Source: Anadara kagoshimensis
Taxonomy: Eukaryota; Mollusca; Bivalvia; Arcoida; Arcidae
Assembly: GCA_021292105.1 (NCBI GenBank)
Contig: CM037862.1
Location: forward strand, 3,232,501 to 3,296,500
Reading direction: 5' to 3'
Length of the DNA: 64,000 nt
Of the stretch, positions 812-61,025 are shown piece by piece. Within the stretch, counting starts at the first letter, position 1. Every line of letters begins with the position of its first letter. Under the pieces are notes generated by a model. The model worked only from the letters and a program-made list of their open reading frames with translations, was not told the DNA's origin and ran no database searches. The position numbers and the translations under genes are program-made.

Positions 812-905
812 AGTGAAGTGCACGTGTTGCATGTTCACTTCCATCAAAAGCTATTACAACTGTTTTAGGTTTTCTCTTCCTAGGTTTCGGTTCTTTAGCA
901 GCCAT
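812..905 (-). CDS. Universal stress protein gene A, first coding exon only (partial)
   Basis: This is the first coding exon of a UspA-family protein; the remaining exons lie left of the window. The ATG is the complement of 903-905 in a good context (AACAATGG). The exon encodes 31 residues plus one base: a lysine/arginine-rich leader (KEPKPRKRKPK), then the first beta strand and nucleotide-contact segment [17 protein letters not shown], as in USPs. It ends in CACT|GTAAGT, a strong donor, leaving phase 1 exactly as in copies B-E. The family binds ATP or forms dimers and is linked to stress resistance; the actual role here is inferred. It is one member of a tandem array transcribed leftward. Confidence 0.85.
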
Positions 906-1971
906 TGTTAACCAAGCCGACTACCTCCCTCCTCGTATCGACACCAATTGAATCATGTGGATATGTACTGGTATTGATCTATCGTACAGTAGAAATTCTC
1001 AAGCCAAACATTGTTTATATACAATACTCAGATTGTTTAATCAGGCCAAGTTGAACGTATTTTTTCAATATCGGTAAACTTTTTACCGTGAAATGTGATA
1101 ATATGATTGTTCTGCAGCATTGTTAATGGAAGCATAAATAGTCCCACTTGACTAAATAATGGAATAAAATGTCAATTGTATGTGAAATAAGTGATTCATT
1201 GTAAAGACGGTAAGGCAAAATAAGTGTAAATCCATATAATAAAATCTGATATGAGAGGAACAGATGAGATTTCAAATAAAGTTTTCGGTATCAGAATTCT
1301 CAGCATTCGTGTATTTTAAGTTTTGTCCATTGGAAAATCACATTTTATTGAGCTGATTTATGATATGCAACATTATACTGCCTATGAGGGTATTTTTGTT
1401 TTATTTTTTGAATACAAAATATTTCTAAGCTTCTCTGCCGTGACGCCATGTACCTGGAATGTTTTGAGTTTGTAAGAGATACGCAAATGTCGCTTCACAT
1501 ACTGTCTTTTACTTTGTGACAATTTTTATTTTCCATAATGTTCATAGAAAGTTTCATCTAAAAAATTTGGTACTATCCATTTAACTGAGCGTATATGTAA
1601 CGTTTTTCGTACCATCTAATACCATATCTAAATAGAAAAAACAAGTTTGCAGTTATTTTGCATGGTGTACGATATAGTTAACAAAAACAGCTGTGTGTTG
1701 ATGTAACACGTCACCATGAGTGTCACTTCTTGTGTAAACACGGTTCGTTTCTACATATATCATTACAATAATATTCTACATTAATCGAAGAAACGAACAT
1801 TGGTTTTCAATTTCGACTCAACTCTAGCAAATGAACAATATCAAACTTTATTGAAATGTATTCTTTTCTGTGAGTTATTTCCATATTTCGCTGTCAAAAA
1901 CACAGCGATAGAGACAGTTACCATCAAACTTGTTATTTCCTGTTTTAATGTTAATTTAGAGAAATATATCA
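906..1971. other. 5' flank of gene A (array unit sequence)
   Basis: The first ~200 bp are the conserved 5' UTR/promoter block of the USP unit. The rest is AT-rich and matches the flanks upstream of genes C, D and E, for example the block around 1441-1500 that recurs near 31403, 47574 and 61496. I see no coding exon in it. Confidence 0.5.
1014..1021 (-). promoter_or_regulatory. Putative TATA box of USP gene A
   Basis: The minus strand reads TATATAAA, about 109 bp upstream of the ATG at 905. The same motif lies at the same place in genes B, D and E, within a block of about 120 bp conserved in all five copies. A start site some 30 bp downstream would give a 5' UTR of roughly 75 nt, which is inference. 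Confidence 0.5.
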
Positions 1972-7378: not shown

Positions 7379-8115
7379 ATGCAGAACCTTGTTAAATCTG
7401 GAGAGAAGACTGACGTCAAATCATCAACTCAACATACAGTTATATAGATGACGTTCTGTCTCTTAAAAATCCTAAATTTGGAGACTATGTAAATGTAATC
7501 TATCCTAGTGAGCTTGAAATAAAAGAAACGACTTATTCCTCAAGTTCTACTTCATATTTAGACTTATACCTGAATTATGACGCACACGAAAGGCTACATT
7601 TGAAACTTTATGACAAACGTGATGACGTCAATTTTTCTATTGTCAACTTTCCTTTTTTTATGCAGCAATATACCTGCTTCTCCTGCTTATGGTGTATTTG
7701 TTTCCCAACTAATACGCTATGGTAAAGCTTGTTCCCACTACGGAGACTTTGTACAACGAAGTAGGTTGCTTGCAAATAAATTGTTGTCTCAGGGATATTG
7801 CAAGCCTAGGCTGATCAAGGCCCTCAAAAAGTTTTATGGCCGTCATCACAGTATTGTTGATAAGTTTGATGTTTCTGTGTCCAGGATTGCCCTGGATATA
7901 TTTGACGTCTCATAGTTCGATGTTCCTTTCACACAATTTTGATTACACACGTGGCGGGTGTAGCTAGCTGCACAGGAGGTGCTTACCCTTCCGGAGTACC
8001 CGGCCTCGCTTCCCTGGTGGAAGTTCACGTGTCTAACCTAACTTGTCAGTTCCAAATTTTTTACTACGCTTCTGGATTGTGATTCGGACATGGATTAGTA
8101 TGTTTGTTTTTGATT
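7379..8115 (+). mobile_element. RT retroelement 3' fragment (YIDD reverse transcriptase C-terminus plus tail)
   Basis: This is one of the better preserved copies. Its decayed frame encodes ...[18 protein letters not shown].. (YIDD being the RT catalytic motif), then [49 protein letters not shown] and [26 protein letters not shown] before a stop at about 7913. Frame changes occur near 7420 and 7660. A ~200-bp tail follows, ending 'tatgtttgtttttgattga'. This protein type is common in bivalve and cnidarian genomes; whether it is Penelope-like or another LINE-related class I cannot settle. In units C, D and E only the tail survives at this site. Confidence 0.7.
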
Positions 8116-8586: not shown

Positions 8587-8594
8587 ATACTAGT

Positions 8595-11131: not shown

Positions 11132-14100
11132 TTAACCCTTTTCTGGTTTCTTGATAGGACACACAACAACGGGAACAGGAGAATGATGTAACAAATAGTC
11201 ACTAACACTTCCTAGCAACGTTCGTCTAATATTACCTTGACCTCTAGTTCCAGTAACAATAACTGTAGCATTAACCTCAACTGCTGCACTTAAAATACCA
11301 GCTCCGGGTTTAGGTGCATGTGCACTCTTCACTATCCCATTCATCTACAAAAGAAAAATGGAAGTAAACACCCAATGGAATAGTTTCAAAATGGGAATTG
11401 TCTTAAAACGTTCGAAAAATAGTCATCTATTTAAAGCACACAAAATATATAAATATGATGTAATTTATAGAGAATAATTAAGCTTCGTAGAATAATATTT
11501 AGACCATTAGGAGATTGTTTACATATTTATGATTTATTACGTAGTAATGGTTTTATGTTGAATGATTCCAATATGTGTGTATGCCTTTTCCTCTTTTACC
11601 CTTTATAATATTCTGCCGTGTTCAAGTACATGTTTTTTAAATACATTTTTTACTTCTTATTGTCAGTTCGATGATGTCATAAAAACATCAATTTAGCCTA
11701 TGTCTGAGTTAACAACTAAGGTCCTGTTCTCACTTACGGTCAATTTTGTATCATAATATGGGTTTTCTTAATGGGGTATACCTTGACGTTAATACACAAC
11801 TATTTTATCCATTGGATATGAGATAGCATCAGTTGAACTTCCGGGGACATGCGATGTTAACGTTTTAAAACATGCCTCGTAATATTCACTGATCACGTTG
11901 TACGCTAGCAAACCCCATTAAACCTCAACAAACTTGAAAAATCAAAACAAATGATAAAGCTGATAATGAAAGATTAAACGCAATGAAATAAGTTCTTTGT
12001 GAATTAAATGTAAGGTCGTCGATACTTTAAAAACGTGTCACATTCTTCTGGCGAGAATATTGTTTGTACAAAGTTCATATATTAACAGCTGACAGTCTCC
12101 TGGTGAAAAGCACGTATATCATTTCACTTAATGAGATAAAAAAATTAAATATCATAATGGGAGTAATTGTATGTCAATGGAAGGTTATGTAAAGATTTTT
12201 GCAGCAAACTTCAAACAATTTTATTCGAACAATGTAAATGATTTGATATATAGCACCTAAAGCATTGTTTTGTTTTCTTAAGATGACATACATGTATTTG
12301 TGTAGAAACCTTTATCTCAACACCAACGCGTACTCAAGTCAATATTCAAATGACAAATAAACAATTAAACAAGACCTGGTGAATAAATATTAAGCTCACT
12401 AAACCAAACAACCCCTTACCCCTAATGCTAAATAAACCCAATATTGACTTAATCATGATTGCAAGTCTAAGAGCAAAGCTTATGATAAAGAATAAACTTA
12501 AGAACATTCGGATATAGGGTAGATAAAATAATGAATTCATTACAAGAAGAAATAGCAATAGCAGAAATCGCCAATGCTTTCGTGAAACAATTGACAAGCA
12601 CCGGAATAGTCATTCAATGAAAGTTCAACCTTCCTATTGTACCTAAGCAATTTACACATTTAACCAGTTATAATATGCTCAAAAGGTCCAAAAAGGCTTA
12701 TGTTTTTAAATGTGTTTAGTACTCTGTAAAGTAAGAATTACCATGTGGTTTGGTTACACTATTTTTACTTTCCCATTGTAGTTTTCCAGCAATCCAACCA
12801 ATTAAAATGGTTTAGTTATAAATATTTCATAGAAAAAAGTATTAATACACTTAATAACTGTAAACCAAGTTCGATAATATAAATAAGATACTTACATTTA
12901 AATCTTTCAGTAATTTAGCATAATCTACCAGTTTACTTTGTATTCTTTTAACTTCATGTTGTAGTAGTAACTTAAAGGCTTCGTAATCTACAGAGTGTGG
13001 TGCTGTAACATAATAATGTAATTAGGTACGTTAGGTACGTGATTACAACATTGCATGACATCTGTAGTTCCACACAAATTAGTTCCAAAGTTTTTACTTT
13101 GCTTTTGGATTGTGGTTCGGATTAGTATGTTTGTTTTTTTTATTAATTGATTACTTTGGGAGCACCCAGCCTGATTTTCCTGGTAACAGTTTATGTGTTT
13201 AACCTATTTGTCAGCCAAAAAATTTTAACTTTATTTTGGAATTTTTGTTTGGACATGGCTTGGTATGTTTGTTTTTTATTTTTACTTTGCCTGTACCTAG
13301 TCTTTTTCTACATTTTGTTACAAAAGTTACTTATCCAAACAGTATTCATCGACCACCTTATTACATGTGTAATGTGGTATGTTTATCTTCCCTTGTTCTG
13401 TTCATTTTAATCGTGCTCTTAGTTGCTTATCCTATTATATAAAACATATGTGTTTCGTAGTTCAGTAAACTAAACATGATGATAGATGTTGTTAAAAGTA
13501 CAGTGCACGTCCATTGTATGACATTTTATAATCAGGTCTCAGCATTTGCGCGTCGATGGCATGGTAGATAGGTTACAGGACTTAAAATGTATTTTACAAT
13601 TTTAGGAGGTTTTAAAATCAGTGTTTAATGCTGGTGTTTCTCTTGTAACGTATTTTATATCCCACTTATCTTAATTACATTGGTTGTGATAATTTCCAAG
13701 AGTTTTCAGTTGCAATTTTCCATTTTGCACAGCGACAGTAATATGCACCATATTATACAATTATATCAATGCCCGTTCGACATAGAGATGAATTTATGTA
13801 ATCAATGGCCTCAGTATGTTTCTTTAGTGATTCATTGAATGCAGCTGTTCATTTCATATTTCGTTAATACATAAAATTTTGTTTTAATTAAAGATGGTGT
13901 GCTTGCTATAAGCTACTTATACTTAATAATAATTAAACTGCTCAATTATGCAGAATACCTGAAGTAATGACATCACTTAGTTCTACACAATACACAAGAA
14001 ATACTTTATCCTCGAACCTGTGAAGATGTTCCGCATAAACTAAAATATAAAAACGAAAAATCCAATAAGGCATGTTGTATTAATTACTCATTTGGGGAAT

Positions 14101-17100: not shown

Positions 17101-17481
17101 TTTTTTAAATAATCAACAGTTTCAATTCATAACAGTTATACTATAGTTAAATGTGAAAATAAAAGAAATAGTTTATCAAAAAGTATACATATTCTGTAGT
17201 TCTTGTTGTTTTTATTTATTTTTGTGTTTTCCAATTCTAACAACTAACACATTTTTAACTAATGCTAACCTCATTAATTGCACTATATACCGAGTTCCAT
17301 AAGTTTAAATAAAAATGAAAGTTACACAAAATAGCATCCAATAAGTAATAAAACCTTAGAAGTAAAATACAAATAAAATATACTTACAGTAAAGTGCACG
17401 TGTTGCATGTTCACTTCCATCAAAAGCTATCACAACTGTTTTAGGTTTTCTCTTCCTAGCTTTCGGTTCTTTAGCAGCCAT
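11132..17481 (-). CDS. Universal stress protein gene B (4 coding exons, 164 aa)
   Basis: The coding exons are 17388-17481, 13959-14039, 12896-13002 and 11132-11344; introns are 3348, 956 and 1551 bp, all GT-AG. The joined frame is 495 nt. Residues 1-14 form a Lys/Arg-rich leader. Residues 15-31 give the first strand and the VVIAFDGS segment. Exon 2 supplies KVFLVYCVE, and exon 3 a long helix (about 64-94). Exon 4 gives [12 protein letters not shown] and the UspA ATP-binding signature G126-x2-G129-x9-G139-S140, ending [16 protein letters not shown]. The length fits single-domain USPs. The ATG sits in AACAATGG. The family binds ATP and is tied to stress responses; the cellular role here is inferred. 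Exon 4 begins MNG, where C, D and E have ING. Introns 1 and 2 carry retroelement tails. Confidence 0.92.
13071..13280 (+). repeat. Retroelement tail fragments in intron 2 of gene B
   Basis: Two partial tails lie in a row: 'tttgcttttggattgtggttcgg...tatgtttg' (13093-13136), then 'gggagcacccagcc...cctggtaacagtttatgtgttt' with a second 'tttggacatggcttggtatgtttg'. They are opposite in strand to the gene. Copies C, D and E carry a tail at the same intron position (26885, 40361, 56901). Confidence 0.5.
14900..15215. repeat. Short tandem duplication inside intron 1 (about 110-130 bp units)
   Basis: The pattern 'ccgtttatataaaatat' / 'tcccatct..gaagtaatga' / 'tttattattct..' appears twice here (starting near 14930 and 15050), with a further partial unit to 15215. 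The same structure recurs in intron 1 of C, D and E (near 28720, 42210 and 58730). It is noncoding. Confidence 0.4.
15386..15610 (-). repeat. Two adjacent retroelement tails in intron 1 of gene B
   Basis: On the minus strand there are two tail ends ('ggttgtgatttagacatgg' and 'ggattgtgatttggatatg'), about 165 bp apart, with the 'acttccgg' and 'gtagctatctaaata' blocks between. They are in the same orientation as the gene. The equivalents are 29149-29395, 42621-42850 and 59149-59372. Confidence 0.5.
16265..16380 (-). repeat. Retroelement tail fragment in intron 1 of gene B
   Basis: The reverse complement shows 'cgccgtgatggacta...acttaatttgccagatttcgcagtgtttac', then 'tttgggaatttgagttggacata', a diverged tail. 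It is the counterpart of positions 1-112 in gene A. Confidence 0.45.
16522..17025. other. Gene B-specific ~500-bp insertion in intron 1
   Basis: Flanking sequence on both sides aligns with the uninterrupted stretches in C (30200-30250), D (43840-43880) and E (60320-60370), so about 500 bp has been added here. It is less AT-rich than its surroundings and includes 'ccccctccgggtgag'-like sequence near 16965-16982. Two minus-strand open frames (16341-16601 extends in, and 16732-16941) show no family I recognise. Its origin is unknown; no terminal repeats are visible. Confidence 0.4.
16615..16670. promoter_or_regulatory. Cluster of CRE/ATF-like sites in intron 1 of gene B
   Basis: There are two perfect TGACGTCA palindromes (16615-16622 and 16642-16649) and one TGACGTCG (16663-16670) within 56 bp. 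They are about 0.8 kb downstream of the gene B start codon and inside the B-specific insertion. TGACGTCA is the CREB/ATF consensus. Regulatory use is inference. Confidence 0.35.
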
Positions 17482-21446: not shown

Positions 21447-22620
21447 ACTATTACCTCGAAATACTCAAGATGTTAACAATTGTTTAATATAAATTCCTTT
21501 TACCTTGTGTCAATATACGGGAACTTTTTCTCAATTCTGATTAATGTCCTTTACTGTGTTTGTATTTGTTTTGAGTGATGTTGCCATTGTCAAATGTATT
21601 CTGATCCACTGCAGATGTCACAACATTAGCTAAGTTTTATTTTAAACCAAAATCCTGTTTTTGTTATAGATGTGCTTTTAGGATTCGTATTGCTTAATCA
21701 AAACCAAACGCCATTCAACAGGATTACACCTTGGGGAATCATTGTCGACGACAATTCTAATAACTAATCACAGATTGGGTTTTTTATGGATACTGTACGA
21801 TACAGAATCCTTTTTACGACATTATTTTGTATTCTTAATTAGATTTTAAACCGCTTTGTTCTTAACATGGTATTAAAGTACTTAAAACATATTAAAAAAG
21901 GAAATCAGCCTTCAATATATGTCTTATGCCACAGAATATTACTATAAACTTTATGACTTACAACTGACATTGTCATTTAGTTTTTATAATAGAACAGCGG
22001 AATCTGTGACATACAATATGTTCATTACACTTCGCAAAACCAAAAGCATCCAAGTAAATGAAACAATTAATGATGAATTCTGTTAAAGAATACAAGACAA
22101 GAAAATACAAACAAATGCATTCATTGAGGTAGTTTCAGTGCTGACGCAATCCTGTCTCAATGCGATGCATCGTAGACCCGTCAGTTATAATGTTATTACT
22201 ACTATTGTAAACGATTTGCTGAGAACACGTTGTATTTTAGTGCTGTATGTATCTTTGTTGTTTAATAAATTGATTCTTTACGATCCCATTTACTGTATAA
22301 CGTTACTATCTGATTTTGTGATATTAGGTAATATCTAACAAAGAAGCAGTTCACAGCCATCTGATTTAATTCCGTACTGTAATTGATAGCCAGTAGATTA
22401 AATTGCGTGTACGTAATTATCAATTACTGAAATGCGAGGACTAAATAGCTACTGAAATTGTTTTGTATAAAAAAACTGTCTGCGACATAAAACAAATAAA
22501 AAACATATTTAATATCGTCTAACCATATTTGTTATATGTCCATGTTTAAATCCGTGTTGGAGCATTATTTAGTTTATTCCATTCGATATTCCCTACACGA
22601 ACTATTTAACAAAAAGTTAA
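21447..22620. other. Intergenic array sequence between genes B and C
   Basis: This is shared with the other units. It contains the ATGCATCGTAGACC block, here within a 66-codon open frame (22138-22338). I see no splice-supported gene. Confidence 0.4.
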
Positions 22621-22700
22621 TTCACGTGTCTAACCTAACTTGTCAGTTCTGCTTCTGGATTGTAATTCAGACATGGATTAATATGTTTGTTTATGATTGA
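22621..22700 (+). repeat. Retroelement tail, remnant of a deleted RT fragment
   Basis: Only 'ttcacgtgtctaacctaac' through 'tggattaatatgtttg' remains. In the unit before gene B the same site holds the full RT fragment (7379-8115). D (36238-36318) and E (52025-52104) have the same short remnant with the same left junction. Confidence 0.6.
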
Positions 22701-23319
22701 AAGGTCAAAAAAAAGATACCGTTCAATTTATTCCGATGTGCCATATAATAACATGTCAAATCTTATCTTCTTCTGGAAACTGAATGATGTTGCTTCTGAG
22801 ATTAATATTGTCTTCAGTGGTGTTATGGTAAGGTTTATTGTTGTAATGATGATAAAATTTTTCAGTGTCCTGTATATCGGTTAAATATACGGTGTGAAGT
22901 ACATGCTTTATCTTCTGTACAAGCTATTCCCTCCTATTACTAATTGTCAGTTTGGTAACTAAACTACGTGTTTTGATGTCATGTATTTCATATTGTTGGG
23001 TATTTGAGCTTTCTTATGGATTTAAATTTTAATGTTTATGGTCTCTTGTTATAATATTGATTTGATTCGTATTGGCAAAGAAACATTAATCACAATTACT
23101 GTAATGGCGATGCCTAGCTTAATTTTTTCTTCAAATTTATCTTTAAAGAGATTTCCTTTGGGTTTATATAGTTTTTTATTTACATCATCTTGATTCACAT
23201 ATAAAACAAAAATATAGTGACAAAACCATCATTAAATGATAGAGGTTTTTTACATAATATTTTGTTTGAAAATATAAATTTCCAACAACTACCGGTATAC
23301 TAATGTGAATAAACTTGCT
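22701..23319. other. Intergenic array sequence upstream of the RT fragment
   Basis: This is shared with 8116-8586, 36320-36930 and 52105-52690. It has no feature I can support; the hAT element present in the B unit is absent. Confidence 0.4.
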
Positions 23320-23920
23320 GATGTGTTTCTTCAAAACACAATTTATGTAGAACCTTGTCAAAACCTGAAAGAAGACTGTATCTAAATCATTCCACCTAAC
23401 ATCTACATTCTATCTGCAAATAATCATAAATATAGAGAATATGTGAATGTCATCTAACAAAGTGAGCTTGAAACTGTACAAACACAAATTTGGCAATACC
23501 CAAATAATTCTTCAATTTGTGCTTCATATTTCGACTTGTATCCCGATTGTGATTGAATACGATAGGCTACATCTGAAGCTATATGAAAAATTTTATGATT
23601 TCAATATTTCCATTGTCAACTTACCTTCTCTATGTCACAATATACCTGCTTTTTCTACTTATGTTATATTTGTTTTACTGTTAATATGCTATGGTGGAGA
23701 TTGTTGTCACTACGGGAAATAACACAACGAAGCACGCTATTGATTCAGGGATAAATAAGCCTAAGATTTCCAAAGCCTTCAAAACATTTCATGGTCGCCA
23801 TCACAATAATTTTGATAAATATGATGTCTCTCTATCCAAAATTACCCTGGATATATTTGACGCCACATAGTTTCATGTTTCTTTCATTCTCAATTTTATT
23901 TCCAAATAGCGACTGTAGCT
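23320..23920 (+). mobile_element. RT retroelement 3' fragment near gene C
   Basis: This decayed RT C-terminal region includes the blocks RLHLKLYEKFYDFNISIVNL and HNIPAFSTYVIFVLLLICYGG. After a frame change it continues with an FHGRHHN..KYDVSLSKITLDIF-like end and a stop at 23868. It is the counterpart of 9958-10515. It keeps about 123 bp (23493-23615) that D and E have lost. Confidence 0.6.
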
Positions 23921-24544
23921 GGATCAATCAAAAAGACCTCAACATATCTTTGTCCAAAAAAAATTAATACAATATAACAAATGTATTATAAAGAGAAAAA
24001 TTAATAAAAAAAAACTCTTTAAATTGAAATTCTCCAAATAAATTTGGAACTTATTTTTCAAAACTTTTAAACGCCCCAAAATATATACGTTCCACAGTGT
24101 TTTGAACAAATATGCGGTACATACTCTATAACACAATTTTAGTACAAAGTGCAGTTTTTAACTCAAACTTAAGAAATAATCTTGAACAATCTAAAACAAT
24201 ATGTATAATTAACTAATTGAAAAAGCCACCATATCGTTTTACAGTGGATCAATATTCAGGTTTATAACTCGATAATCACAACACAATGTTCTCTCGCGAA
24301 CAGGAATAAGGACATCAAACCACAGCACATCAAATCTGACTTGTCTATGATATATTATACTTGTTTTCAAGTTAAAGACGCCATTTGCATCCAACAAATA
24401 TCTTTTACCGAGTTCATTGTCAATTCCTAGCATCAAACGTGGTATTTGATTTTACTGTTTACTATAGAGTAGATGTGCAAGCATACAACAGAGCATTATA
24501 AAGGGTATAATAACTGGCATGGTCTTCCGAGTAAATATTATCAT
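23921..24544 (-). other. 3' flank of USP gene C
   Basis: This AT-rich sequence downstream of the gene C stop is shared with D and E at high identity and with B at lower identity. The 3' UTR must lie here; I cannot place the polyadenylation site. Confidence 0.4.
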
Positions 24545-30500: not shown

Positions 30501-30888
30501 GTTTAAAAACAAAACAGTTTTACTAAAATTAAAAGTGAAATAAAAAAAATTGTGTAATAAAATGTTTGCATATTCTGTTGTTGATATTTTTTCCTGCTAT
30601 TGTTGTATGCGTTATCGCAGATAAGATTAACTTTTCAATTTCTAACCACTGACACATTTTTTTTACTAATGATGACCCAATTAATTACACTGTTAAAACG
30701 AGTTCCATAAGTTTAAAAAAAAAATAAGTTACAAAAAATGATATCCGATTACTTATAAAATCTTAGAAATAAAATACACATAAAATATACTTACAGTGAA
30801 GTGCACGTGTTGCATGTTCACTTCCATCAAAAGCTATAACAACTGTTTTAAGTTTTCTCTTCCTAGCTTTCGGTTCTTTAGCAGCCAT
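24545..30888 (-). CDS. Universal stress protein gene C (4 coding exons, 164 aa)
   Basis: The exons are 30795-30888, 27747-27827, 26687-26793 and 24545-24757; introns are 2967, 953 and 1929 bp with GT-AG ends. The frame is 495 nt and the UspA motif G-x2-G-x9-G-S is intact. Differences from B include RKRKLKT instead of RKRKPKT at residue 13, HVHRPDDKV in exon 2 instead of [16 protein letters not shown] for SVDYEAF, ILGAA for ILSAA, and a first exon-4 residue of Ile. The C-terminus is full length (KKPEKG). The exon structure and phases equal those of the neighbouring copies. Intron 3 contains a dead partial exon 4. The TATA-like box is altered. Confidence 0.92.
25032..25105 (-). pseudogene. Dead partial copy of exon 4 in intron 3 of gene C
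   Basis: These 74 bp match the 5' third of exon 4 (codons for [21 protein letters not shown]). They lie about 348 bp upstream (in the gene's sense) of the real exon 4, as part of a tandem duplication of roughly 24690-25383. The acceptor AG is lost (TTGTAG changed to GTTC), and coding similarity stops after the VEV codons. It cannot be spliced as an exon. Confidence 0.7.
26885..27003 (+). repeat. Retroelement tail in intron 2 of gene C
   Basis: The blocks are 'cttcgggagcacttagcctc', 'cctgatgaagttcacgtg' and 'ggattttggtttggacatgg'. It is opposite in strand to the gene and shared with B, D and E. Confidence 0.5.
29149..29395 (-). repeat. Retroelement tails in intron 1 of gene C
   Basis: On the minus strand these are repeated 'ggattgtgatttggacatgg'-type ends with 'gtagctatctagatagg' between. 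There are three tail ends within 250 bp, one extra relative to B. Confidence 0.5.
29906..30075 (-). repeat. Doubled retroelement tail in intron 1 of gene C
   Basis: Two tail ends lie head to tail ('tttgggattgtgatttgaac' and 'ggggttgtgatttggacat'), about 55 bp apart. Gene E has a single one at 60078-60190 with otherwise near-identical flanks. Confidence 0.45.
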
Positions 30889-35814: not shown

Positions 35815-35819
35815 GTGAT

Positions 35820-38041: not shown

Positions 38042-41000
38042 TTACGGTTTCTTGACAGGACACACAACAACGGGAACAGGAGAATGGTGTAACAAATAGT
38101 CACTAACACTGCCTAGCAACGTTCTTCTGATATTTCCTTGACCTCTAGTTCCAGTAACAATAACTGTAGCATTAACTTCAACCGCTGCACTTAAAATACC
38201 AGCTCCAGGTTTAGGTGCATGGGCACTCTTCACTATCCCATTGATCTACAAAGGAAAAATTGGAGGTAAATATGCACTGGGAATTGTCTAAAAACATTTG
38301 ATGGATAGTCATCTAATTAAGACGCACAAAAAATATATAAATATAATGGGAATATGTAGAAAATTATTAAATTTCGTAGAACATTAAAACAACAGGGAGA
38401 TTGTTTACATGTTTTGCGATGTTGTATTACGTAATTCTGATTTCAATTGTTCCTATATGTATGTTTGCCTTTTCTTTTATTGTTTGCAAGCCTCTACCAT
38501 TTACTGGTGTTATATCGTGTTTTAACCTTAACCGCTGCACTTAAAATACTAGCTCTGGGTTTAGGTGCATGTGCACTTTTCACTATCACATTGATGAACG
38601 AAGGAAAAAATTGAGGTAAAAATATGCACTGGGATTAGTTTTAAAACGTTTGAACGATAGGCATCTAACTAAGGCACACAAAATATATAAATATTCTGGA
38701 ATATATAGAAAATAATTAAATTTCGTAGACAAATTGAGACTATCATTAACATGCTTTGCGATGCTTTATTACGTAATTCTGTTTTTTTATGTATAACGGT
38801 TCCTTTATGTGTGTTTGTTTTTTCTTCTATTTTTTGCACGTTTCTACCATTTACTGGTATTATCTCGTGTGTTAGTTACCAAAAACTCTTCTATTGCCAG
38901 TTTGATGATGCCATAAAAAAATAAGAATAGCTCAGGGTAAACCCAACAGGTAGGGACTCTTTCTCAATTAAGGTAAATTTTGCGTCATAATCAAACAGTT
39001 ATATTTTACACGATACCCCTTAAAGTTAAATGCGCGTTATTTCCATTTCATATGGAATCGCATCAGTTATTGTTTACTTTTGTGAAAGATGATATAATTC
39101 CGAGAATTTCTGACGTAACCATTTTCCAAACCTTCCTCACAAACGTTCATATGCATTGATCTTGTTGTACACTGTTGAACCCCATTATACTTCAACAAAC
39201 TTTAAAAATCAAAACAGATGAAACAGATGATAAGAAGAGATTAAACACAATGGGGACCGTAAAGTCATTGACACAGGTCGCCTGTTTCTGGCGAGAATAT
39301 TGTTTGTACAATGATTATATAATAACAGCTGACAGTTTCTTGAGGAAAAGAACGTATATCATTTTACTTAATGAGATAAAAAATCTAATATCATAATAGA
39401 AGTAATTGCATGTCAGTGGAAGCTGATGTAAAGATTTTGCAGCAAAAGAATATCTTGAATCTAGATAATATCATTTTAAACAAAAATAGAATCTATACCT
39501 AATGAACATAAAAAATGAATGACTTCATGTCATGTTTATAGAACCTAAGGCATTACATTGTTAACATGACATAAATGCATTCGTATAGAAACGTGTACTT
39601 CAAAACGGAAAGATGTCCAAAATATCCAAAGGGCCAAAAACAACTAAACAGGACCTGATGCATGCATATTAAGATCATGAATCCAACAAGCGCTCACCCC
39701 TAATATAATAAACGTAAATGCAATGTTGACGTAAACATGATTGCAAAGTATGCAAGTAAAGGTTATGATAAACTATAATACATTCAAGTATGATTTGTAG
39801 AGAACATTTGAATTCATTACCAGCTGAAATAGTAAATGTTTCAATTGTCAATGCTTTCCCGAATCAGTTGAAACAAGCACTGGAATCGCCATCCAATAAA
39901 ATCTTAATCTCCATATTGTAGTTCGGCCATTTAGACGGTTAAAATATGTTCGAATAAGCCATAAAAGTTTATGTTTACAATTGTAAAGTAAGAAGTACAA
40001 AGTGGTTAACCTATTTTTACTTTTCCTTTGTAGGGTTCTAGTCATCCAACTTACGTAATTAAAATGGTTATATATATTTCATAAAAAAGTACTAGAATTA
40101 AATCCACCTTATAACTAAACAATGTACCAAATTGTATATATAAATAAGATACTTACATTTAAATCTTTCAGTAATTTAGCATAATCTACCAGTTTACTTT
40201 GTATTCTTTTAACTTCATGTTGTAGTAGTAACTTAAAGGCTTCGTAATCTACAGAGTGTGGTGCTGTTATATAACAATGTACTCAGTTAATATCAGAATA
40301 ATATAGTGAATAATTATAACATTGCATTATCTCTGTAATGTCTACACATAAATAAGTTACTTCGGGAGCACTTAGCCTCACTTCCCTGATGAAAGTTCAC
40401 ATGTTTAACCTAATTTGTCAGCTTCAAAGTTTTTACTTTGTTTTTGGATTTTGGTTTGAACATGGATTGATTTGTTGGTACTTACTAAGCAAGGTGTGCC
40501 TGTCACGACGAAACCATTAACAATACAGAGAACAAAAATGTACCTAATCTTTTTCAATATTTTTTCATAAAAGCTACTTATCCAAACAGTATTCCCAGGC
40601 CACTTTATTATATGTACAATGGTTTATCTTCCCTTGTTCTGCTCATTTCAATCGTGCTTTTGATTGCTTAATCTATTGTTTTACTATACACTTAATATAT
40701 AAAACACGTTTTTCGTAGTTAAACATGTTGATAAAGGTTCTTAAAAGTACAGTGCACGTCCATGATGTGGCATTTTATAATCAGTGGTCTTAGTATTTGC
40801 CCGTCCATGGAATGTATTTTGTAATTAGAGGGCGTAGAATGTGGATTTATCCGAGTAAAGAGGTTTTGTAATCACTGGTTAAAATCTGTGTTTATCCTGT
40901 GACGTATTGTATACCCGTTTTAAATAACATTGATTATGATAATTTCCAAGTTTATTTCAGTTGGCTTTTTTTCATTTTGCACAACGGCATGTACATATGC

Positions 41001-44000
41001 ATTCTTATAGAATTATATATATATAGGGCCCATTCGACATCGAGAATAGTTTTTGCCATTAGTGGCGGCAATATGTTGTTTCTTCAGTACATATAATGCA
41101 GCTGTTCATTTCATATTTTGTAAATCCACACAGTTTTTATTTCTTATTAAGATATGCATGTTATAAGCTACTTATTCTTAATGATAAAATTATTGCTCAG
41201 TAATGCCAACAACATAGATTACCTGAAGTAATGACATCACTCAGTTCTACACAATACACAAGGAATACTTTATCATCCGGTCTATGAACATGTTCAGCAT
41301 AAACTAAAATATAAAACAAATCCTATAGGCATGTTATTTTAATTATTGATAGAGGAACCCCTGCAGTTCAATTCATCAGAGGATCTTTGTGTCTATAGAA
41401 CACAACGCTCTTAAATGTTAACGTATTTAGTAATTACTTTTAACATGCATTGCACTATTAGTGGTTGTTTGAGAAAATCGTTGATTTTACTGCATCTGGT
41501 GTTAAATTATTTAATTAGGTCTGTGAACATATTCATAATAAACTGAAAAGTAGACCCAACAATAAGACAATGAAAATATAAAGATCAGGAGAACGAAATG
41601 TGTCATTCCTAAATAGTGCAAATTACTATCAAATCAAAATCAATTGTTTTTATCTGATATTAATCAACATCTTCTTCCTTGTGTAAAATTTCGAAGCTTT
41701 GGTGATATTTCCTATATCCATTTATGACACAATCATTGCAACATGTGTGTGCTCCTTAACAATGGTATTTTATATGCATACTATATATTTATTTTTGAGT
41801 GATAACCTTAAGTATGCATTATCAAAAGGTATTTCAATACTTCATTAAGGTTTTGTTAACAATTTTATTTTAAAAAGCAACCTGAAGAACAAATCTTTTC
41901 ATTGTATAATTCTTTAACAGAATAGTTTTGCACTTGTAAATTAATATTCATCAACATCTCCATTACATGCTCATTTTGCTTTGGATAAAAGTTTAAAATG
42001 TTGAATGTTTAACATTATTATCAACACTATGCGATTGTAATAACATGAACTTGGCAGTACCACCAAACCACGGATAATTTAACCAGATATTTCCTGACCA
42101 ATCAATGTTTAATGGATTACTCTCAACAACAAAAAGAGAAAACTACGTGTACAGTTGTTCACACTCGCAATTATCCACAGGTCAAATATCAAAGCTTTAA
42201 GATATAAAGCCATTTATATACGATATCCCGATCCGAAGTAATGAAATTGTCTTTCTCTTTATTATTCTTGGTGACATCCTATTATAATGTTTCAAGGCTT
42301 AAAAAGTATCCAACCGTTTATATAAAATACTAGTATCCCATCTTGGAACTAATGATTTTTATCACCCAGATTATGGTACTACATTTTTCTTGGAAACCTC
42401 CTATTATAATGGTTTCCTAGTCGATATGGTTTCTGACTTGGTCCATCAAATGTCAAATTCATTTCCCCATAAAATATAATTGTATAAAGCTGAGGATAAT
42501 ATGTTAACGGTGGGTATTGATTTATATCATGTGGGATATACACAAATACATGCACTTCTAATTGATATTTTACTCCGAGTCAATACAGAATGACATATTT
42601 TAATTATTGGTCATTTTATAAACGCTCCATTTCCAAATCACAATCCCAAATGTCAATCAGAAACATACCGGTCCATGTCCAAATCACAATCCGACATGCA
42701 AAGTAAAGACTTTGAATACTAAGAAATTTATCTTCCGCCATCAAAATTGAAAGGATAAACATCTCCTATCTAGATAGCTACATCCGTCAAGTGTTTAATC
42801 AAATGCAAACATACCAGTAAATGTCCAGATTACAATTCTAAAAGAAAAGTAAGACGGATTAAGATGAGACACATATTCTAGTTCTCATAACCAAACTACA
42901 ACGTATAAATTACTTAAGCATTAGAAAAAATCAGTAGTGCAAGGACCAAAATTTGGGAAATCAAAATATTTCTAAGATGTTGAGCTGAAAAAAACAAAAA
43001 GATCAAAATTGATTTTACCAAATCCACGTTAGGTAATAAAAACTAACAACATTATACAACGAAAAACGTGTCAATATTTTATGCTGAAAAATGTATGTTA
43101 CACTTACAATCCCATCGATAGATTTATCTAATTATGACAACAAATTTGTATAAAGATTTGTTGTAATAAATAGTACCCTTATACGGTTTCCCGAGAGTCT
43201 AATATATATATATATATATATTATATATATTATATATATATTATAATATATATATATTATACTTTAACTGAATTTAAAGAAACGAAAATATGCACTTATT
43301 TTATGGACCAGTATGCTTTTGTCTGATTTATGCCATTGTTTGTTTACACAAAATCAGTACAAAAATAGTTAAATTGTAATTCAGTACTGTAAGTAGGAAT
43401 AATCATTACTTGATGGTGTTAAAGATTCGATCTTATAAGTTGTAATGTCTTCCAATATATCAATTATAGCAGGCAAGTGTTCATTAACAGACATTTTAAA
43501 TTCTATAAACTTCCCATCTTCTATTTCGGTCCGTCCGTTATAAACAAGTCAAAAATTAGCTTTAAATATTTCAAAAGAAAATGATCGAATTGGCATCGAT
43601 AGCTTATTAAAATTCATGTCCAGCTCAAAATCCCAAAGCAAAGTAAAAACTTTGAACATCTTGCAAATTAAGCTAATTATTCCATTCTCTTAGTGCAACA
43701 AGACGAGGGGAAAATCGTTTTGATATCATGGCTAAGAAACGCAGAATTACTTTAGAGTTTACATTAGATAAGTAGTGTATATATTAATATATGGTATGAT
43801 GAACATCTGCTTCGGTTCCTGTTTTCGTTTTGATTGATAAAGGAAATCTTTATCTCCGTATTTTCTTTAAAAAAAGGTTGGATGGTCAGGAAAATTCTTC
43901 ATTGTAATATCTATTATCTATCATTCATAGTTTTAATTAACTATTGCTTCAAAGCTTGTCCAGGGACCGATAGTAATAATCAATCATACCAATACGCGTT

Positions 44001-44541
44001 TGTCTTATCTTACTTCAGTTTGTTTCGTCTTATTCGGTTTATTATTAACTTCTATTGTGTTGTGTTTTTGGTTATGTTGGCTGCTGCCAAGTACATGGAC
44101 TTACATATTGCAAAATTATGTTTTTTCCCATTTAAAATAATCAGCAGATTAAGACAAAAACAGTTTTACTAAAATTAAATGTGAAATAAAAAATTGTTTA
44201 ATAAAATATGTGCATATTCTATTGTTGTTGTTTTTCTTCCTATTGTTGTATGCGTTATCGCGGATAAAATTAACTTTTTAAATTCTAACCACTGACACAT
44301 TTTTACTAATGACAATAATGACAACCCAATTAATTACACTGTTATAACGAGTTCCATAAGTTTGAATAAAAATACAAGTTACACAAAATGATATCTAAAA
44401 ATTAATTAAACCTCAGAAGTAAAATACACCCAAAATATACTTACAGTGAAGTGCACGTGTTGCATGTTCACTTCCATCAAAAGCTATCACAACTGTTTTA
44501 GGTTTTCTCTTCCTAGTAGCTTTCGGTTCCTTAGCCGCCAT
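38042..44541 (-). CDS. Universal stress protein gene D (4 coding exons, 162 aa)
   Basis: The exons are 44445-44541 (97 nt), 41223-41303, 40157-40263 and 38042-38245; introns are 3141, 959 and 1911 bp with GT-AG ends. The frame is 489 nt. Exon 1 carries one extra codon, giving KATRKRK instead of KARKRK in the basic leader. The codon for Glu162 of the B/C form is TAA here, so the protein ends ...VVCPVKKP and lacks the last three residues (EKG). The UspA motif is intact, so function is probably retained. Exon 2 is HVHRPDDKV, as in C and E. Intron 3 holds the dead partial exon 4. Confidence 0.91.
38522..38595 (-). pseudogene. Dead partial copy of exon 4 in intron 3 of gene D
   Basis: This is the 74-bp counterpart of 25032-25105, offset by about 350 bp from the real exon 4 and with the acceptor AG likewise lost. 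Confidence 0.7.
40361..40474 (+). repeat. Retroelement tail in intron 2 of gene D
   Basis: This is the same tail, place and orientation as 26885-27003. Confidence 0.5.
42621..42850 (-). repeat. Retroelement tails in intron 1 of gene D
   Basis: These are minus-strand tail ends, as in 29149-29395. A short stretch just before them ('cgaccacaaacggt' in C) is missing in both D and E. Confidence 0.5.
43201..43260. repeat. (TA)n microsatellite in intron 1 of gene D
   Basis: This is about 60 bp of near-pure TA/ATT alternation. Gene E has a much shorter run at the same site (about 59716-59730), and B and C have almost none. It is a copy-specific expansion. Confidence 0.85.
43612..43712 (-). repeat. 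Retroelement tail fragment in intron 1 of gene D
   Basis: This is a diverged tail on the minus strand, the counterpart of 16265-16380. Confidence 0.4.
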
Positions 44542-47371: not shown

Positions 47372-47572
47372 GGATTTCACATGGACAAGTTAAACTATTA
47401 GATAAAAGTACAAATGACCTAACAAAATGATTACTGGACAATAGATGAACTGGACATATAAAGATTGACACTTATTGATTTTAAGAGGTACATTTAGGGA
47501 TAATTTTGGTCCAATTAAATTAAACAGGTAGTTTTGGCTTAAACAAAATAAAATAAAATAATTACTGTAACA
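47372..47572 (-). repeat. Truncated 5' LTR of the Gypsy-type element
   Basis: These 201 bp are nearly identical to 46205-46405 and end in the same GTAACA terminus. The junction to the RT fragment at 47371/47372 marks a deletion that removed the rest of this LTR and the front of the internal region. Confidence 0.8.
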
Positions 47573-53810: not shown

Positions 53811-56800
53811 TTACGGTTTCTTGATAGGACACACAACAACGGGAACAGGAGAATGATGTAACAAATAGTCACTAACACTGCCTAGCAACGTTCTTCTGAT
53901 ATTTCCTTGACCTCTAGTTCCAGTAACAATAACTGTAGCATTAACTTCAACCGCTGCACTTAAAATACCAGCTCCAGGTTTAGGTGCATGGGCACTCTTC
54001 ACTATCCCATTGATCTACAAAGGAAAAAATGGAGGTAAATATGCACTGGGAATTGTCTAAAAACATTTGATTGATAGTCATCTAATTAAGACGCACAAAA
54101 TATATAAATATAATGGAAATATGTAAAAAATTATTAAATTTCGTAGAACATTAAAAACATTAAAACAACAGGGAGATTGTTTACATGCTTTGCGATGTTG
54201 TATTACGTAATTCTGATTTCAATTGTTCCTATATGTATGTTTGCCTTTTCTTCTATTGTTTGCAAGCCTCTACCGTTTATTGGTGTTATATCGTGTTTTA
54301 ACCTTAACCGCTGCACTTAAAATACTAGCTCCAGGTTTAGGTGTATGTGCACTTTTCACTATCCCATTGATGTACGAAGGAAAAAATAGAGGTAAAAATA
54401 TGCGCTGGGATTAGTTTTAAAACGTTTGAAAGATAGGCATCTAATTAAGGCACACAAAATATATAAATATTCTGGAATAAATAGAAAATAATTAAATTTC
54501 GTAGACTTGGGAGAATGTTAACATGTTGAGCGATACTTTATTACGTCATTCTGTTTTTATGTATAACGGTTCCTTTATGTGTGTTTGTTTTTTCTTCTAT
54601 TATTTGCACGTTTCTACCATTTACTGGTATTATCTCGTGTGTTAGTTACCAAAAACTCTTCTATTGCCAGTTTGATGATGCCATAAAAAATAAGAATAGC
54701 TCAGGGTAAACCCAACAGGTAGGGACTCTTTCTTAATTAAGGTAAATTTTGCGTCATAATCAAACAGTTATATTTTACGCGATACCCCTTAAAGTTAAAT
54801 GCGCGTTATTTCCATTGCATATGGAATCGCATCAGTTATTGTTTACTTTTGTGAAAGATGATATAATTCCAAGAATTTCTGACGTAACCATTTTCCAAAC
54901 CTTCCTCACAAAAGTTCATATGCATCGATCTTGTTGTACACTGTTGAACCCCATTAAACCTCAACAAACTTTAAAAATCAAAACAGATGATACAGATGAT
55001 AATAAGAGATTAATCGCAATGAAACAGGATCTTTTGGAACTGTAAAGTCATTGACACTTTTACAAAACAGGTTGTCTGCTACTGGTGAGAATATTGTTTG
55101 TACAATGATTATATAATAACAGCTGACAGTTTATTGAGGGAAAGCACGTATATCATTTCACTTAATGAGATAAAATATCTAATATCACAATAGAAGTAAT
55201 TGCATGTCAATGGAAGCTAATGTTAAGATTTTTGCAGCAAAAATATATCTTGAATCTAGATAATATCATTTTAAGCAAAAATAGAATCTATACGTAATAA
55301 ACATAACAAATAAATGACTTTATGTCATGTTTATAGAACCTAAGGCATTACATTGTTAACATGACATAAATGAATTCGTATAAAAAAATTGTACTTTAAA
55401 ACGGAAAGATGTCCAACTATCCAAAGGGCTAAAAACAACTAAAAAGGACCTGATGCATGCATATTAAGATCATGGAATCCAACAACCACTCACACCTAAT
55501 ATAATAAATGTAAATGCAATGTTGACGTAAACATGATTGCAAAGTATGCAACCAAAGGTTATGATAAACTAAAATACATTCAAATATGGTTTGTAGAGAA
55601 CGTTTGAATTCATTACCAGCTGAAATAGTAAATGTTTCAATTGTCAATGCTTTCCCGAATCAGTTGGGCCATTTAGACGGTTAAAATACGTTCGAATAAG
55701 CCATAAAAGTTTATGTTTACAATTGTAAAGTAAGAAGTACAAAGTGGTTAAACTATTTTTACTTTTCCTTTGTAGGGTTCTAGTCATCCAACTTACGTAA
55801 TTAAAATGGTTATACATGTATATATTTCATAAAAAATACTAGAATTAAATACACCTTATAACTAAACAATGTACCAAATTGTATATATAAATAAGATATT
55901 TATTTCTTTGTTTATTTCTGTGTTTCTTTATTCTTACGAAGCAGAATTTATGCAGAACCTTGTTAAATCTGGAGAGAAAACTGTCGCCAAATCATTCAAC
56001 TCAACATACAGATACATAGATGACGTTCTGTCTCTTAACAATCCTAAATTTGGAGACTATGTAAATTTCATCTATCCTAGTGAGCTTGAAATAAAAGACA
56101 CGACTGATTCGATAAGTTCTGCTTCATATTTAGACTTATACCTGAATTATGACGCACAAGAAAGGCTACATTTGAAACTTTATGACAAACGTGATGACTT
56201 CAATTTTTCTATTGTCAACTTTTCTTTTTTATGCAGCAATATACCTGCTTCTCCTGCTTATGGGGTATTTGTTTCCCAATTTAATACGCTATGGTAGAGC
56301 TTGTTCCCACTACGGGGACTTTGTACAACGAAGTAGGCTGCTTGCAAATAAATTGTTGACTCAGTGATATTGCAAGCCTAGGCTTATCAAGGCCCTCAAA
56401 AAGTTTTATGGCCGTCATCACAGTATTGTTGATAAGTTTGATGTCTCTGTGTCCAGGATTGCCTTGGATATATTTGACGTATCATATATAGTTCCATGTT
56501 CCTTTCACACAATTTTGATTACACACGTGACGGGTGTAGCTAGCTAAACAGGAAGTGCTTACCCTTCCGGAGCACCCGGCCTCACTTCCCTGGTGGAAGT
56601 TCACGTGTCTAACCTAACTTGTCAGTTCCAAAGTTTTTACTTTGCTTCTGGATTGTGATTCGGAAATGGATAAGTGTGTTTGTTTTTGATACTTACATTT
56701 AAATCTTTCAGTAATTTAGCATAATCTACCAGTTTACTTTGTATTCTTTTAACTTCATGTTGTAGTAGTAACTTGAAGGCTTCGTAATCTACAGAGTGTG

Positions 56801-59800
56801 GTGCTGTAATATAATAATGTACACAGTTAATATCAGAATAATATAGTGGATAATTACAACATTGCATTATATCTGTAGATCCTACACACAAATAAGTTAC
56901 TTCGGGAGCATCCAGCCTCACATCCCTGCTAAAAGTTCACCTAATTTGTCAGCTTCAAAGTTTTTACTTTGTTTTTGGATTTTGGTTTGGACATGGATTG
57001 ATTTGTTGGTACTTACTAAGCAAAGTGTTTCTGTCACAACAAAACCAATAACAATACAGAGAACAAAAATGTACCTAATCTTTTTCAATATTTTTTCATA
57101 AAAGCTACTTATCCAAACAGTATTCCCGGCCACCTTATTATATGTACAATTGTTTATATTTCCTTGTTCTGCTCATTTTAATCGTGCTCTTGATTGCTTA
57201 ATCTATTGTTTTACTATACACTAAATATATAAAACACGTTTTTCGTAGTTAAACATGTTGATAAAGGTTCTTAAAAGTACAGTGCACGTCAATCATGTGG
57301 CATTTCATAATCAGCGGTCTTAGTATTTGCCCCTCCATGGAATGTATTTTGTAATTAGAGGGCGTAGAATGTGGTTTTATTCGTGTAAGGAGGTTTTGTA
57401 ATCACTGGTTAAAGTCTGTGTTTATCTTGTGATGTATTGTATACCCGTTTTAAATAACATTGATTATGATAATTTCCAAGTTTATTTCAGTTGGCTTTTT
57501 TTTCATTTTGCACAACGGCATGTAAATATGCATTCTTATGGAATTATATATATAGGGCCCATTCGACATCGAGAATAGTTTTTGCCATTAGTGGCCGCAA
57601 TATGTTGTTTCTTCAGTGCATATAATGCAGCTGTTCATTCCATATTTTGTAAATCCACACAGTTTTATTTCTTATTAAGATATGCATGTTATAAGCTACT
57701 TATTTTTAATGATAAAATTATTGCTCAGTAATGCCAACAACATAGATTACCTGAAGTAATGACATCACTCAGTTCTACACAATACACAAGGAATACTTTA
57801 TCATCCGGTCTATGAACATGTTCAGCATAAACTAAAATATAAAACAAATCCAATAGGCATGTTATTTTAATTATTGATAGAGGAACCCCTGTAGTTCAAT
57901 TCATCAGAGGATATTTGTGTCTATACAACACAACGCTCTTAAATGTTAACGTATTTAGTAATTATTTTTAACATGCATTGCACTATTAGTGGGTGTTTGA
58001 GAAAATCGTTGATTTTACTGCATCTGGCGTTACATTATTTGTTCAGGTCTGTGAACATATTCATAATAAACTGAAAAGTAGACCCAACAATAAGACAATG
58101 AAAATATAAAGATCAGGAGAAAGAAATGTGTCATTCATATATATTGCAAATTACTATCACAATCAATTCTTTTCATCTGATATTAATCAACATCTTCTTT
58201 CTTGTGTAAAATATCGAAGCTTTGGTGATATTTCCTATATCCATTTAGGATACAATCATTGCAACATGTGTGTGCTGCTTAACAATAGTACTTTATATAC
58301 ATAATATATATTTATTTTCGAGTGATGACCTTAGGTGTGCATTATCAAAAGGTATTGCAATACTTCATTAAGGTTTTGTTAACAATTTTATCTTAAAAGC
58401 AACCTGAAGAACAAATCTTTTCATTGTATAATTCTTTAACAGAATAGATTTGCACTTGTAAATTAATATTCCTCAACATCTCCATTACATGCTCATTTTG
58501 CTTTGGATAAAAGTTTAAAATGTTGAATGTTTAACATTATTATCAACACTATGCGATTGTAATAACATGAACTTGGCAGTACCACCAAACCACGGATAAT
58601 TAAAACCAGATATTTCCTTACCAATCAATGTTTAATGGATTACACTTAACAACAAAAAGAGAAAACTACGTGTACAGTTGTTCACTCGCGAAATTATCCA
58701 CAGTTCAAATAGCAAAGCTTTAAAATATAAAGCCGTTTATATAAGATATCCCATCTCAGAAGTAATGAAATTGCCATACTCTTTATTATTCCTGGTGACA
58801 TCCTATTATAATGTTTCAAAGCTTAAAAAAATATCCAACCGTTTATATAAAATACTAGTATCCCATCTTGGAACTAGTGATTATTATCACCCAGATTATG
58901 GTACTACATTATTCTTTAAAACCTCCCATTGTAATGGTTTCCTGGTCGATATGGTTTCTGACTTGGTCCATCAAATGTCAAATTTGTTTCCCCATAAAGT
59001 ATGATTGTATAAAGCTGAGGATAATATGTTAACGGTGGGTATTGATTTATGTCATGTGGGATATACACAAATACATGCACTTCTAATTGATATTTTACTC
59101 CGAGTCAATACAGAATGACATATTTTAATTATTGGTCTTTTATAAACGCTCCATTTCCAAATCACAATACCAAATGTCAATCAAAAACATACCGGTCCAT
59201 GTCTAAATCACAATCCGACATGCAAAGTAAAGACTTTGAATACTGAGAAATTTAACTTCCGCCATCGAAATTGAAAGGATAAGCATCTCCTATCTAGATA
59301 GCTACATCCGTCAAGTGATAAATCAAATGAAAACATACCGGTCCATGTCCAAATTACAATCCAAAAAGAAAAGTAAGACGGATTAAGATGAGACACATGT
59401 TCTAGTTCTCATAACCAAACTACAACATATAAATTACTTAAGCATTAGACGAAATCAGTAGTGCAAGGACCAAAATTGGAGAAATCGAAAGATGTAGAGA
59501 TAAAAAAAATTGAAGGATCAAATATTATTTTACCAAATCCACGTTAAATAATATAAACTAACAACATTATACAACGAAGAACGTGTCAAGATTTTCTGCT
59601 TAAAAATGCATGTTACACTTACAATCCCATCGATAGATTTACTTAATTTGACAGCAAATTTGTATTAAGATTTGTTGTAATAAATAGTACCCTCATACGG
59701 GTTCCCGAAAGTCTAATATTATATATATATAGACTATACTTTAAATGAATTTAAAGAAACGAAAATATCCACTTATTTTATAGACCGGTATGCTTTCGTC

Positions 59801-61025
59801 TGATTTATGAAAATATTTGTTTACACAAAATCAGTATAAAATTATTTACAGTTGAAAATCAATACTGCCAGTAGGAATAATCATTAATTTATGGCGTGTA
59901 AGATTCGATCTTGTAAGTTGTAAAGTCTTCCAATAAATCAATTATTACATCCAAGTGTTCATTAACAGATGTTTTAAATTCTATAAACTTCCCATCTTCT
60001 ATTTCGGTCCGTCCATAATAAACATGTCGAAAATTAGCTTTATTTCAAAGAAAATTGCTCTAATTGTCATTGATAACAAATCACAAACAAACATTCCATA
60101 CCATGTCCAAATCACAACCCCAAAAGCAAATGAAAACTGCGAAATCTGACAAATTAAGTTCATTAATAGATTGGCTCAGTGTAACACGGCGAGGGAAAGA
60201 TCGTTTAGTATCATGACTAAGAAACATAAAAATACTTTACGTTTTAGAGTTAACATTAGATAAGTAGTGTCTAAAATATAAACATATGGTATGGTGTACG
60301 TCTGTTCCTGTTTTAGTTTTGATTGATGAAGGAAATCTTTATCTCAGTATCTTCTTTTATAAAAGGTTGGATGGTCAAGGAAATTCTTCACTGCAGTAAA
60401 TAGTATCTATTATTCATAGTTTTAATCAACAATCGCGGCTTCAAAGCATGTCAGAAGAACGAAAGTTATAATCAGTAATTATGTGTTTGTCATATCCTTG
60501 TTTAGCTTATTTTGTCTTTTTTGGGGTTATTATTAACTTCTATTGTGTTGTGTTCTTGATTATGTTGGTTGCTGCTAAGTACGTGAATTTGCATATTGCG
60601 AAATTCTGCTTTTTCCATTTAAAATAATCAGCAGATTGAGACAAAAACACTTTTACTAAAATTAAATGTGAAATAAAAAAAGTTTAATAAAATGTGTGCA
60701 AATTCTATTGTTGTTGTTGTTTTTTTTTCCTGCTATTGTTGTATGCGTTATCGCGGATAAGATTAACTTTTCAAATTCTAACCACTGAAACAATTTTTTA
60801 CTAATGATGACCCAATTAGTTACACTGTTAAAACGAGTTCCATAAGTTTAAATAAAAAATACAAGTTACAGAAAATGATATCAATTACCTAATAAAACCT
60901 TAGAAATAAAATACAAATTAAATATACTTACAGTGAAGTGCACGTGTTGCATGTTCACTTCCATCAAAAGCTATCACAACTGTTTTAGGTTTTCTCTTCC
61001 TAGCTTTTGGTCCTTTAGCAGCCAT
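53811..61025 (-). CDS. Universal stress protein gene E (4 coding exons, 161 aa)
   Basis: The exons are 60932-61025, 57751-57831, 56697-56803 and 53811-54014; introns are 3100, 947 and 2682 bp with GT-AG ends. The frame is 486 nt. The leader reads [12 protein letters not shown] (Glu5 to Gly). Exons 2 and 3 are those of the C/D type. Exon 4 ends ...VVCPIKKP at the same TAA as in D, so three residues shorter than B and C. The G-x2-G-x9-G-S nucleotide motif is complete. Intron 3 is longer because an RT fragment inserted a few bases from the exon 3 donor; the donor AAT|GTAAGT itself is intact. It is the most upstream copy visible, and array homology ends beyond its promoter flank. Confidence 0.92.
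54298..54371 (-). pseudogene. Dead partial copy of exon 4 in intron 3 of gene E
   Basis: This is the 74-bp counterpart of 25032-25105. The coding part still reads [13 protein letters not shown]-like, but the acceptor TAG is changed to TAC, so it cannot splice at the normal place. Confidence 0.7.
55899..56690 (+). mobile_element. RT retroelement fragment inserted in intron 3 of gene E
   Basis: This is the longest RT coding stretch in the window: [28 protein letters not shown] (catalytic YIDD), [32 protein letters not shown] and [14 protein letters not shown]. Then an extra T (near 56280) shifts the frame, and a CAG-TGA change adds a stop (about 56366). The full tail follows, ending 'tgtttgtttttgat' directly at the exon 3 donor. 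A 4-bp GATA flanks it (55895-55898 and 56688-56691). It is opposite in strand to the gene and absent from intron 3 of B, C and D. Confidence 0.75.
56901..57005 (+). repeat. Retroelement tail in intron 2 of gene E
   Basis: This is the same tail and place as 26885-27003 and 40361-40474. Confidence 0.5.
59149..59372 (-). repeat. Retroelement tails in intron 1 of gene E
   Basis: These are minus-strand tail ends as in genes C and D, joined to the flank by the same short deletion as in D. Confidence 0.5.
60078..60190 (-). repeat. Retroelement tail in intron 1 of gene E
   Basis: This is a single tail where gene C has a doubled one (29906-30075). The flanks are almost identical to C and unlike D. 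Confidence 0.5.

Follow-up and report, generated by a model that had tools for sequence, protein, structure and literature searches.

Five Usp genes in one direct tandem array

The locus on C6 raises the question of whether the near-identity of tandem genes encoding universal stress proteins (Usp) tells us when the genes were amplified. In the stretch of DNA analysed here (the window; 64,000 nucleotides, C6:3232501-3296500, in an assembly of 1.115 Gb and 36 contigs), an earlier note had described first exons at five positions and four complete genes of four exons each, all in the same orientation, with identical intron phases and a period of 13.4-16.6 kb. Our rebuilt models agree with this description and supply the strand, which it had left unstated: the five positions at which first exons had been placed are the exact 3' ends of minus-strand first exons, genes A, B, C, and D are complete in the window, and the first exons are spaced by 16,576, 13,407, 13,653, and 16,484 bp (range 13,407-16,576 bp). 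A fifth gene, E, begins in the window and is completed in the left flanking contig. The array as a whole comprises five intact genes, E, A, B, C, and D, on the minus strand of C6:3221223-3293525 (Table 1).

The self-comparison of the window that had been proposed as a check returned 37 repeats of at least 600 bp, all 37 of them direct, which excludes a chance origin of the pattern; nearly all of their offsets are compatible with one to four unit lengths. Taking a tandem array to be at least three direct paralogues with homologous spacers, the locus is one: five units lie on one strand and their spacers can be aligned. Homology between units starts near window position -16,900 and stops near 61,290, with patches up to 62,488, and to the right of the array the sequence is unrepeated except for short unit patches and elements.

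A search of the 264 kb around the window (C6:3132501-3396500) found no sixth gene of the array and revealed a divergent Usp neighbour on the plus strand, at about C6:3192199-3194517. This neighbour has the intron positions and phases of the array for exons 2-4, which supports the array gene model, and its exon 2 ends with five additional codons; no exon 1 was found for it. The only other matches of that search were short pieces resembling exon 2, among them two weak plus-strand matches between the array and the neighbour (C6:3203380-3203418, E 0.011; C6:3210846-3210884, E 0.17). Farther to the right of the window is a separate large direct-repeat array (C6:3336165-3382670, window +103,665 to +150,170) with many matches of ~3-5 kb at 93-97% identity among the matches listed.

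Table 1. Coordinates of the features of the Usp array, in window positions unless prefixed with C6.
Feature	Position	Strand	Remark
Gene A, whole	17481-11132	-	rebuilt model
Gene A exon 1	17388..17481	-
Gene A exon 2	13959..14039	-	81 bp
Gene A exon 3	12896..13002	-	107 bp
Gene A exon 4	11132..11344	-	213 bp
Gene B, whole	30888-24545	-	rebuilt model
Gene B exon 1	30795..30888	-
Gene B exon 2	27747..27827	-
Gene B exon 3	26687..26793	-
Gene B exon 4	24545..24757	-
Gene C, whole	44541-38042	-	rebuilt model
Gene C exon 1	44445..44541	-	97 bp, one additional Thr codon
Gene C exon 2	41223..41303	-
Gene C exon 3	40157..40263	-
Gene C exon 4	38042..38245	-	204 bp, early stop
Gene D, whole	61025-53811	-	rebuilt model
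Gene D exon 1	60932..61025	-
Gene D exon 2	57751..57831	-
Gene D exon 3	56697..56803	-
Gene D exon 4	53811..54014	-	204 bp, early stop as in C
Gene E exon 1	812..905	-	94 bp, rebuilt model
Gene E exons 2-4	-7396..-7476, -9086..-9192, -11065..-11277 (C6:3225104-3221223)	-	left flank
Homogenised tract, unit B	21800..29800 (approximate)		91-99% to C and D
Exon-2-start relic, gene B	28036..28062	-	duplicated start within intron
Exon-2-start relics, other units	C 41514-41540, D 58039-58068, A 14258-14278
348-bp local tandem duplication	B 24684..25382; C 38172-38874		copies exon 4 start
Truncated exon-4 relic	B 25031-25105; D 54371-54297
RT-like fragment	D 55921-56690	+	intron 3, D only; a few bases beyond intact exon 3 donor
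RT-like fragments	A 7379-8116; C 35407-35815; E -8437..-7738		copy-specific
Older RT-like remnants	~23507 (B), ~37100 (C), ~52868 (D)		downstream of exon 4; common to B, C, D
Reverse transcriptase/RNase H remnant	46442-47376		Pfam match

Gene structure and predicted products

In all five genes the introns are GT-AG with phases 1, 1, and 0 and the frames are uninterrupted. Exon lengths are 94, 81, 107, and 213 bp; C has a longer exon 1 (97 bp), and C and D have a shorter exon 4 (204 bp), both genes ending in KKP and an early stop codon where E, A, and B read on to KKPEKG. The products are 164 residues long in E, A, and B, 162 in C, and 161 in D. Genes A, B, C, and D span 6.3-7.2 kb, and E spans 12.2 kb. 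RNA genes were looked for in the unit and none were found.

The universal stress protein identity that had been proposed is well founded. A composite spliced product, assembled from array exons, matched PF00582 (Usp) at 2e-24 over residues 14-157 and 139 of the 141 profile positions, scoring 87.2 bits against a curated cut-off of 24. Matches in the Protein Data Bank comprised five distinct sequences; three of these, the two best among them, bear the name universal stress protein, and the other two are unnamed hypothetical proteins. Entry 1wjg ("probable ATP binding protein") gave a match at 1.3e-7. The pattern G-2X-G-9X-G(S/T), which we take to be the Usp ATP-binding signature, is found as G-2X-G-9X-G-S in 5/5 products, and still matches in gene E, where Ser replaces Gly inside the 9X stretch (GQSN). 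From this signature the products are predicted to bind ATP. The N-terminus is basic (KARKRKPK), extends ahead of residue 14, outside the Usp domain, and may act as a nuclear signal. Each gene would encode a single-domain Usp of 161-164 residues that, judging from its family, is expected to be a nucleotide-binding stress protein acting as a dimer. Compared with the single-domain ATP-binding type of PF00582 (e.g., PDB 1wjg), the array proteins are alike in profile match and signature but differ by the basic N-terminal extension, and the array gene differs in being split into four exons.

Nei-Gojobori counts over 161 codons (the additional codon of C was excluded, as were the terminal EKG codons) revealed 2 to 11 nonsynonymous differences per pair, in keeping with the earlier statement that the proteins differ by few residues. 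With dS of 0.046-0.215 across the ten pairs, dN/dS was 0.109-0.236 in every one of them, indicating purifying selection, which fits five functional proteins.

Identity between units changes along the unit

The array had also been described as recent. We aligned the five units and followed identity in bins and sliding windows, several far-upstream bins (43-57%) being poorly aligned. For pairs that include E or A, identity is mostly 63-90%, with exceptions for A-B far upstream (91%) and E-A in one bin (94%), and the array is therefore not uniformly recent; only B, C, and D are mutually 91-99% identical, over ~8 kb (29.5-21.9 kb in B) spanning exons 2-4. Beyond this tract on the spacer side, B, C, and D drop to 68-90%, with the highest identity between B and C. 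On the 5' side the first copy to diverge is C, inside intron 1 (B-C and C-D: 79-90%), and B-D stays at 91-97% through exon 1 before diverging in the promoter bin, where all ten pairs are 83-86% identical. The spacer edge of the tract is clear; the 5' edge varies by pair and is unsharp for B-D.

Sites that divide the five units two against three gave the same picture. In the tract (B 29,800-21,800), 386 of 529 such sites separate B, C, and D from E and A, as against 28 of 311 beyond it (far-upstream bin included). The leading split changes along the unit, that is, the trees are incongruent, as in concerted evolution. Since simple duplication would give one tree for the whole unit, inter-unit recombination is the better reading of the changing splits. 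In six of the ten pairs the longest shared run exceeded the maximum of 2000 shuffles, and in the remaining four it was reached by 3, 10, 22, and 34 of 2000 shuffles, in a test that assumes exchangeable sites and in which the B-D run partly overlaps exon 3 and the A-C run bridges a large gap. A mosaic of this kind would be expected of gene conversion or (repeated) unequal crossing-over.

Our preferred reading, to which we give a probability of about 0.88, is that a Usp unit was duplicated in tandem and that recombination between units later homogenised exons 2-4 of B, C, and D. The order of events that we infer would be as follows. A unit of ~13 kb (gene and spacer) was duplicated, probably by unequal crossing-over, to give five Usp genes. 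The resulting array is of uneven age, with promoters and spacers ~10-30% different between copies. Gene conversion or further unequal crossing-over would then have re-homogenised ~8 kb (exons 2-4) of B, C, and D; the spacers stayed divergent and, on the 5' side, C parts from B and D within intron 1. With five intact copies, a bounded tract, and copy-specific insertions, the locus is a clear natural case in which the age of duplication can be separated from later homogenisation, and near-identical proteins in such arrays need not imply recent amplification.

Relic exons and retroelements

Relics of the start of exon 2 occur in A, B, C, and D. Those of B, C, and D retain the AG acceptor but run into a stop a few codons on; the relic of A is missing the AG acceptor, and its frame is open over the stretch inspected. 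The 348-bp duplication present in B and C, together with the relic in D, fits common descent within the tract. The exon-4 relics of B, C, and D are without an AG acceptor and meet a stop after ~30 codons. In view of the early stops or absent AG acceptors, we reject alternative splicing through the duplicated exons 2 and 4.

According to the earlier note, whole units were amplified together and recently, with their introns, flanks, and old retroelements. Introns and spacers were indeed duplicated with the genes, but a recent date is unsupported for the array as a whole, and part of the retroelements came in afterwards. Fragments in A, C, D, and E carry a YIDD-like motif, which we take to mark them as reverse-transcriptase-like; none has a Pfam match. 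None of them is matched by a fragment at the corresponding position of the other units, and their differing places indicate insertion after duplication. They are also better preserved than the related older remnants, which, being common to B, C, and D, agree with the joint amplification that had been claimed. The amplification thus appears to have carried some retroelement remnants, with others arriving later. Of eight long frames compared with Pfam, two match, both being pieces of one retroelement remnant, and the other six frames of the unit have no match at E 0.01. The reverse transcriptase/RNase H remnant at 46442-47376 has no self-match of at least 600 bp within the window.

The same observations bear on whether the array could be an assembly artefact, in which one or two genes would be represented by tandemly placed haplotype copies. 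In favour of it are the similarity of the bodies of B, C, and D (91-99%), and of B-D through exon 1 as well (91-97%), and paired Usp loci elsewhere in the assembly, 91-97% identical, which could be unpurged haplotypes. However, haplotypes placed in tandem would be uniformly alike and have repeated flanks, and neither is seen: along the unit, identity among B, C, and D varies between 68% and 99%, falling to 68-90% in the spacers and standing at 85% in the promoter bin, and the flanks beyond the unit are not repeated as a block, the right flank being free of repeats apart from short unit patches and elements. The retroelement insertions are moreover unit-specific, and the subfamily occupies a single place in the assembly (best candidates among 67 scored). 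We consider the artefact very improbable; judged from the assembled sequence, haplotype duplication is unlikely, the worry being largely answered by the divergence between copies and the single location. Duplication followed by partial homogenisation remains the preferred reading.

Promoters, dosage, and regulation

We scanned 500 bp upstream of each of the five genes with simple consensus motifs and compared the counts with expectations from mononucleotide shuffles. Across the 5 x 500 bp, heat-shock, metal-response, and hypoxia motifs were each found 0 times (expected: 0.04, 0.61, and 3.64, respectively), an antioxidant-type motif once (gene A; expected: 0.47), CCAAT seven times (expected: 5.30), and TATA-like motifs four times (expected: 4.88), and we take no scanned motif to be enriched in the five promoters. 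The proximal promoter still aligns well across the five copies. A TATA-like box lies at the same position in E, A, C, and D, with B having an altered version; such motifs are no commoner than chance in this AT-rich sequence.

A recent adaptive amplification for dosage or stress resistance, as had been suggested for the array, is in our view unlikely. Five intact genes under purifying selection, their near-identical proteins, and a genome with at least 50 matches to Usp-coding exons are consistent with it. The array is nevertheless not recent outside the B-C-D tract, heat-shock, metal, and hypoxia motifs are absent upstream of 5/5 genes, the lone antioxidant-type motif of A stands against 0.47 expected, and conversion can keep copies nearly identical without selection for dosage.

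It is also conceivable, and in our judgement quite doubtful, that divergent promoters on homogenised bodies allow the copies, all encoding one protein, to be active in different tissues or under different conditions. Such a division would accord with a promoter bin at ~85% in all pairs versus bodies of B, C, and D at 91-99%, and with the TATA-like box of E, A, C, and D being changed in B. Against it, the 91-97% identity of B-D through exon 1 means that the promoter is no fixed boundary of the tract, the five proximal promoters are still well aligned, and TATA-like motifs are not enriched. That recombination keeps the coding body identical while copy-specific promoters are retained, so that several differently regulated genes would serve one stress protein, is an equally doubtful proposal.

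The Usp repertoire and other tandem families

The globin, opsin, and heat-shock type arrays are tandem gene families under concerted evolution. The Usp array likewise consists of direct whole-unit repeats with a mosaic of converted and unconverted parts under purifying selection; its homogenised tract takes in exons 2-4 in three of the five copies. The array is real and well formed; it belongs to an established family, shows the usual marks of concerted evolution, and is ordinary in kind.

A genome-wide protein search (67 candidates scored, lower bounds) returned five exon-4 matches from the array at 140-141 bits and no sixth copy of the array subfamily among the best candidates. Next by score among these candidates is a match of 88.3 bits and 38% identity at C6:28854158; next by exon-4 identity, truncated relics inside the array aside, is the neighbour at C6:3194320 (68%). 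The former (C6:28854158-28854604) covers residues 9-158 in one stretch at 38% identity with three internal stops, and may represent either a less intron-rich gene or a decayed copy. A plasmid search with a first-exon peptide gave no match.

Usp genes of animals, namely Hydra, Aplysia, the annelid Pomatoceros, and Ciona, are treated in PMC2762978, which reports presence and loss. The array belongs to the same Pfam family, likewise in an animal genome, and tandem arrays are absent from that account of presence and loss. The matched text of PMC8382680 has the searched phrase once, in the title of a plant reference, and no title among the literature matches listed describes an animal Usp tandem array. 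With this locus the Usp repertoire of the animal gains a well-defined array. Its detected Usp exons lie mostly on one chromosome: genome-wide, at least 50 exon matches score above the Pfam cut-off, and of the 50 listed, 41 are on C6, eight on C15, and one on C18. Distant Usp pairs, alike over 2-3 kb, lie at C6 46.2/48.9 Mb (91%), C6 54.5/55.4 Mb (95%), and C15 50.85/51.26 Mb (97%), the last pair being inverted; they could be segmental duplications or unpurged haplotypes. Six Usp exon matches on the same strand are clustered within 47 kb at C15:49246990-49294424.
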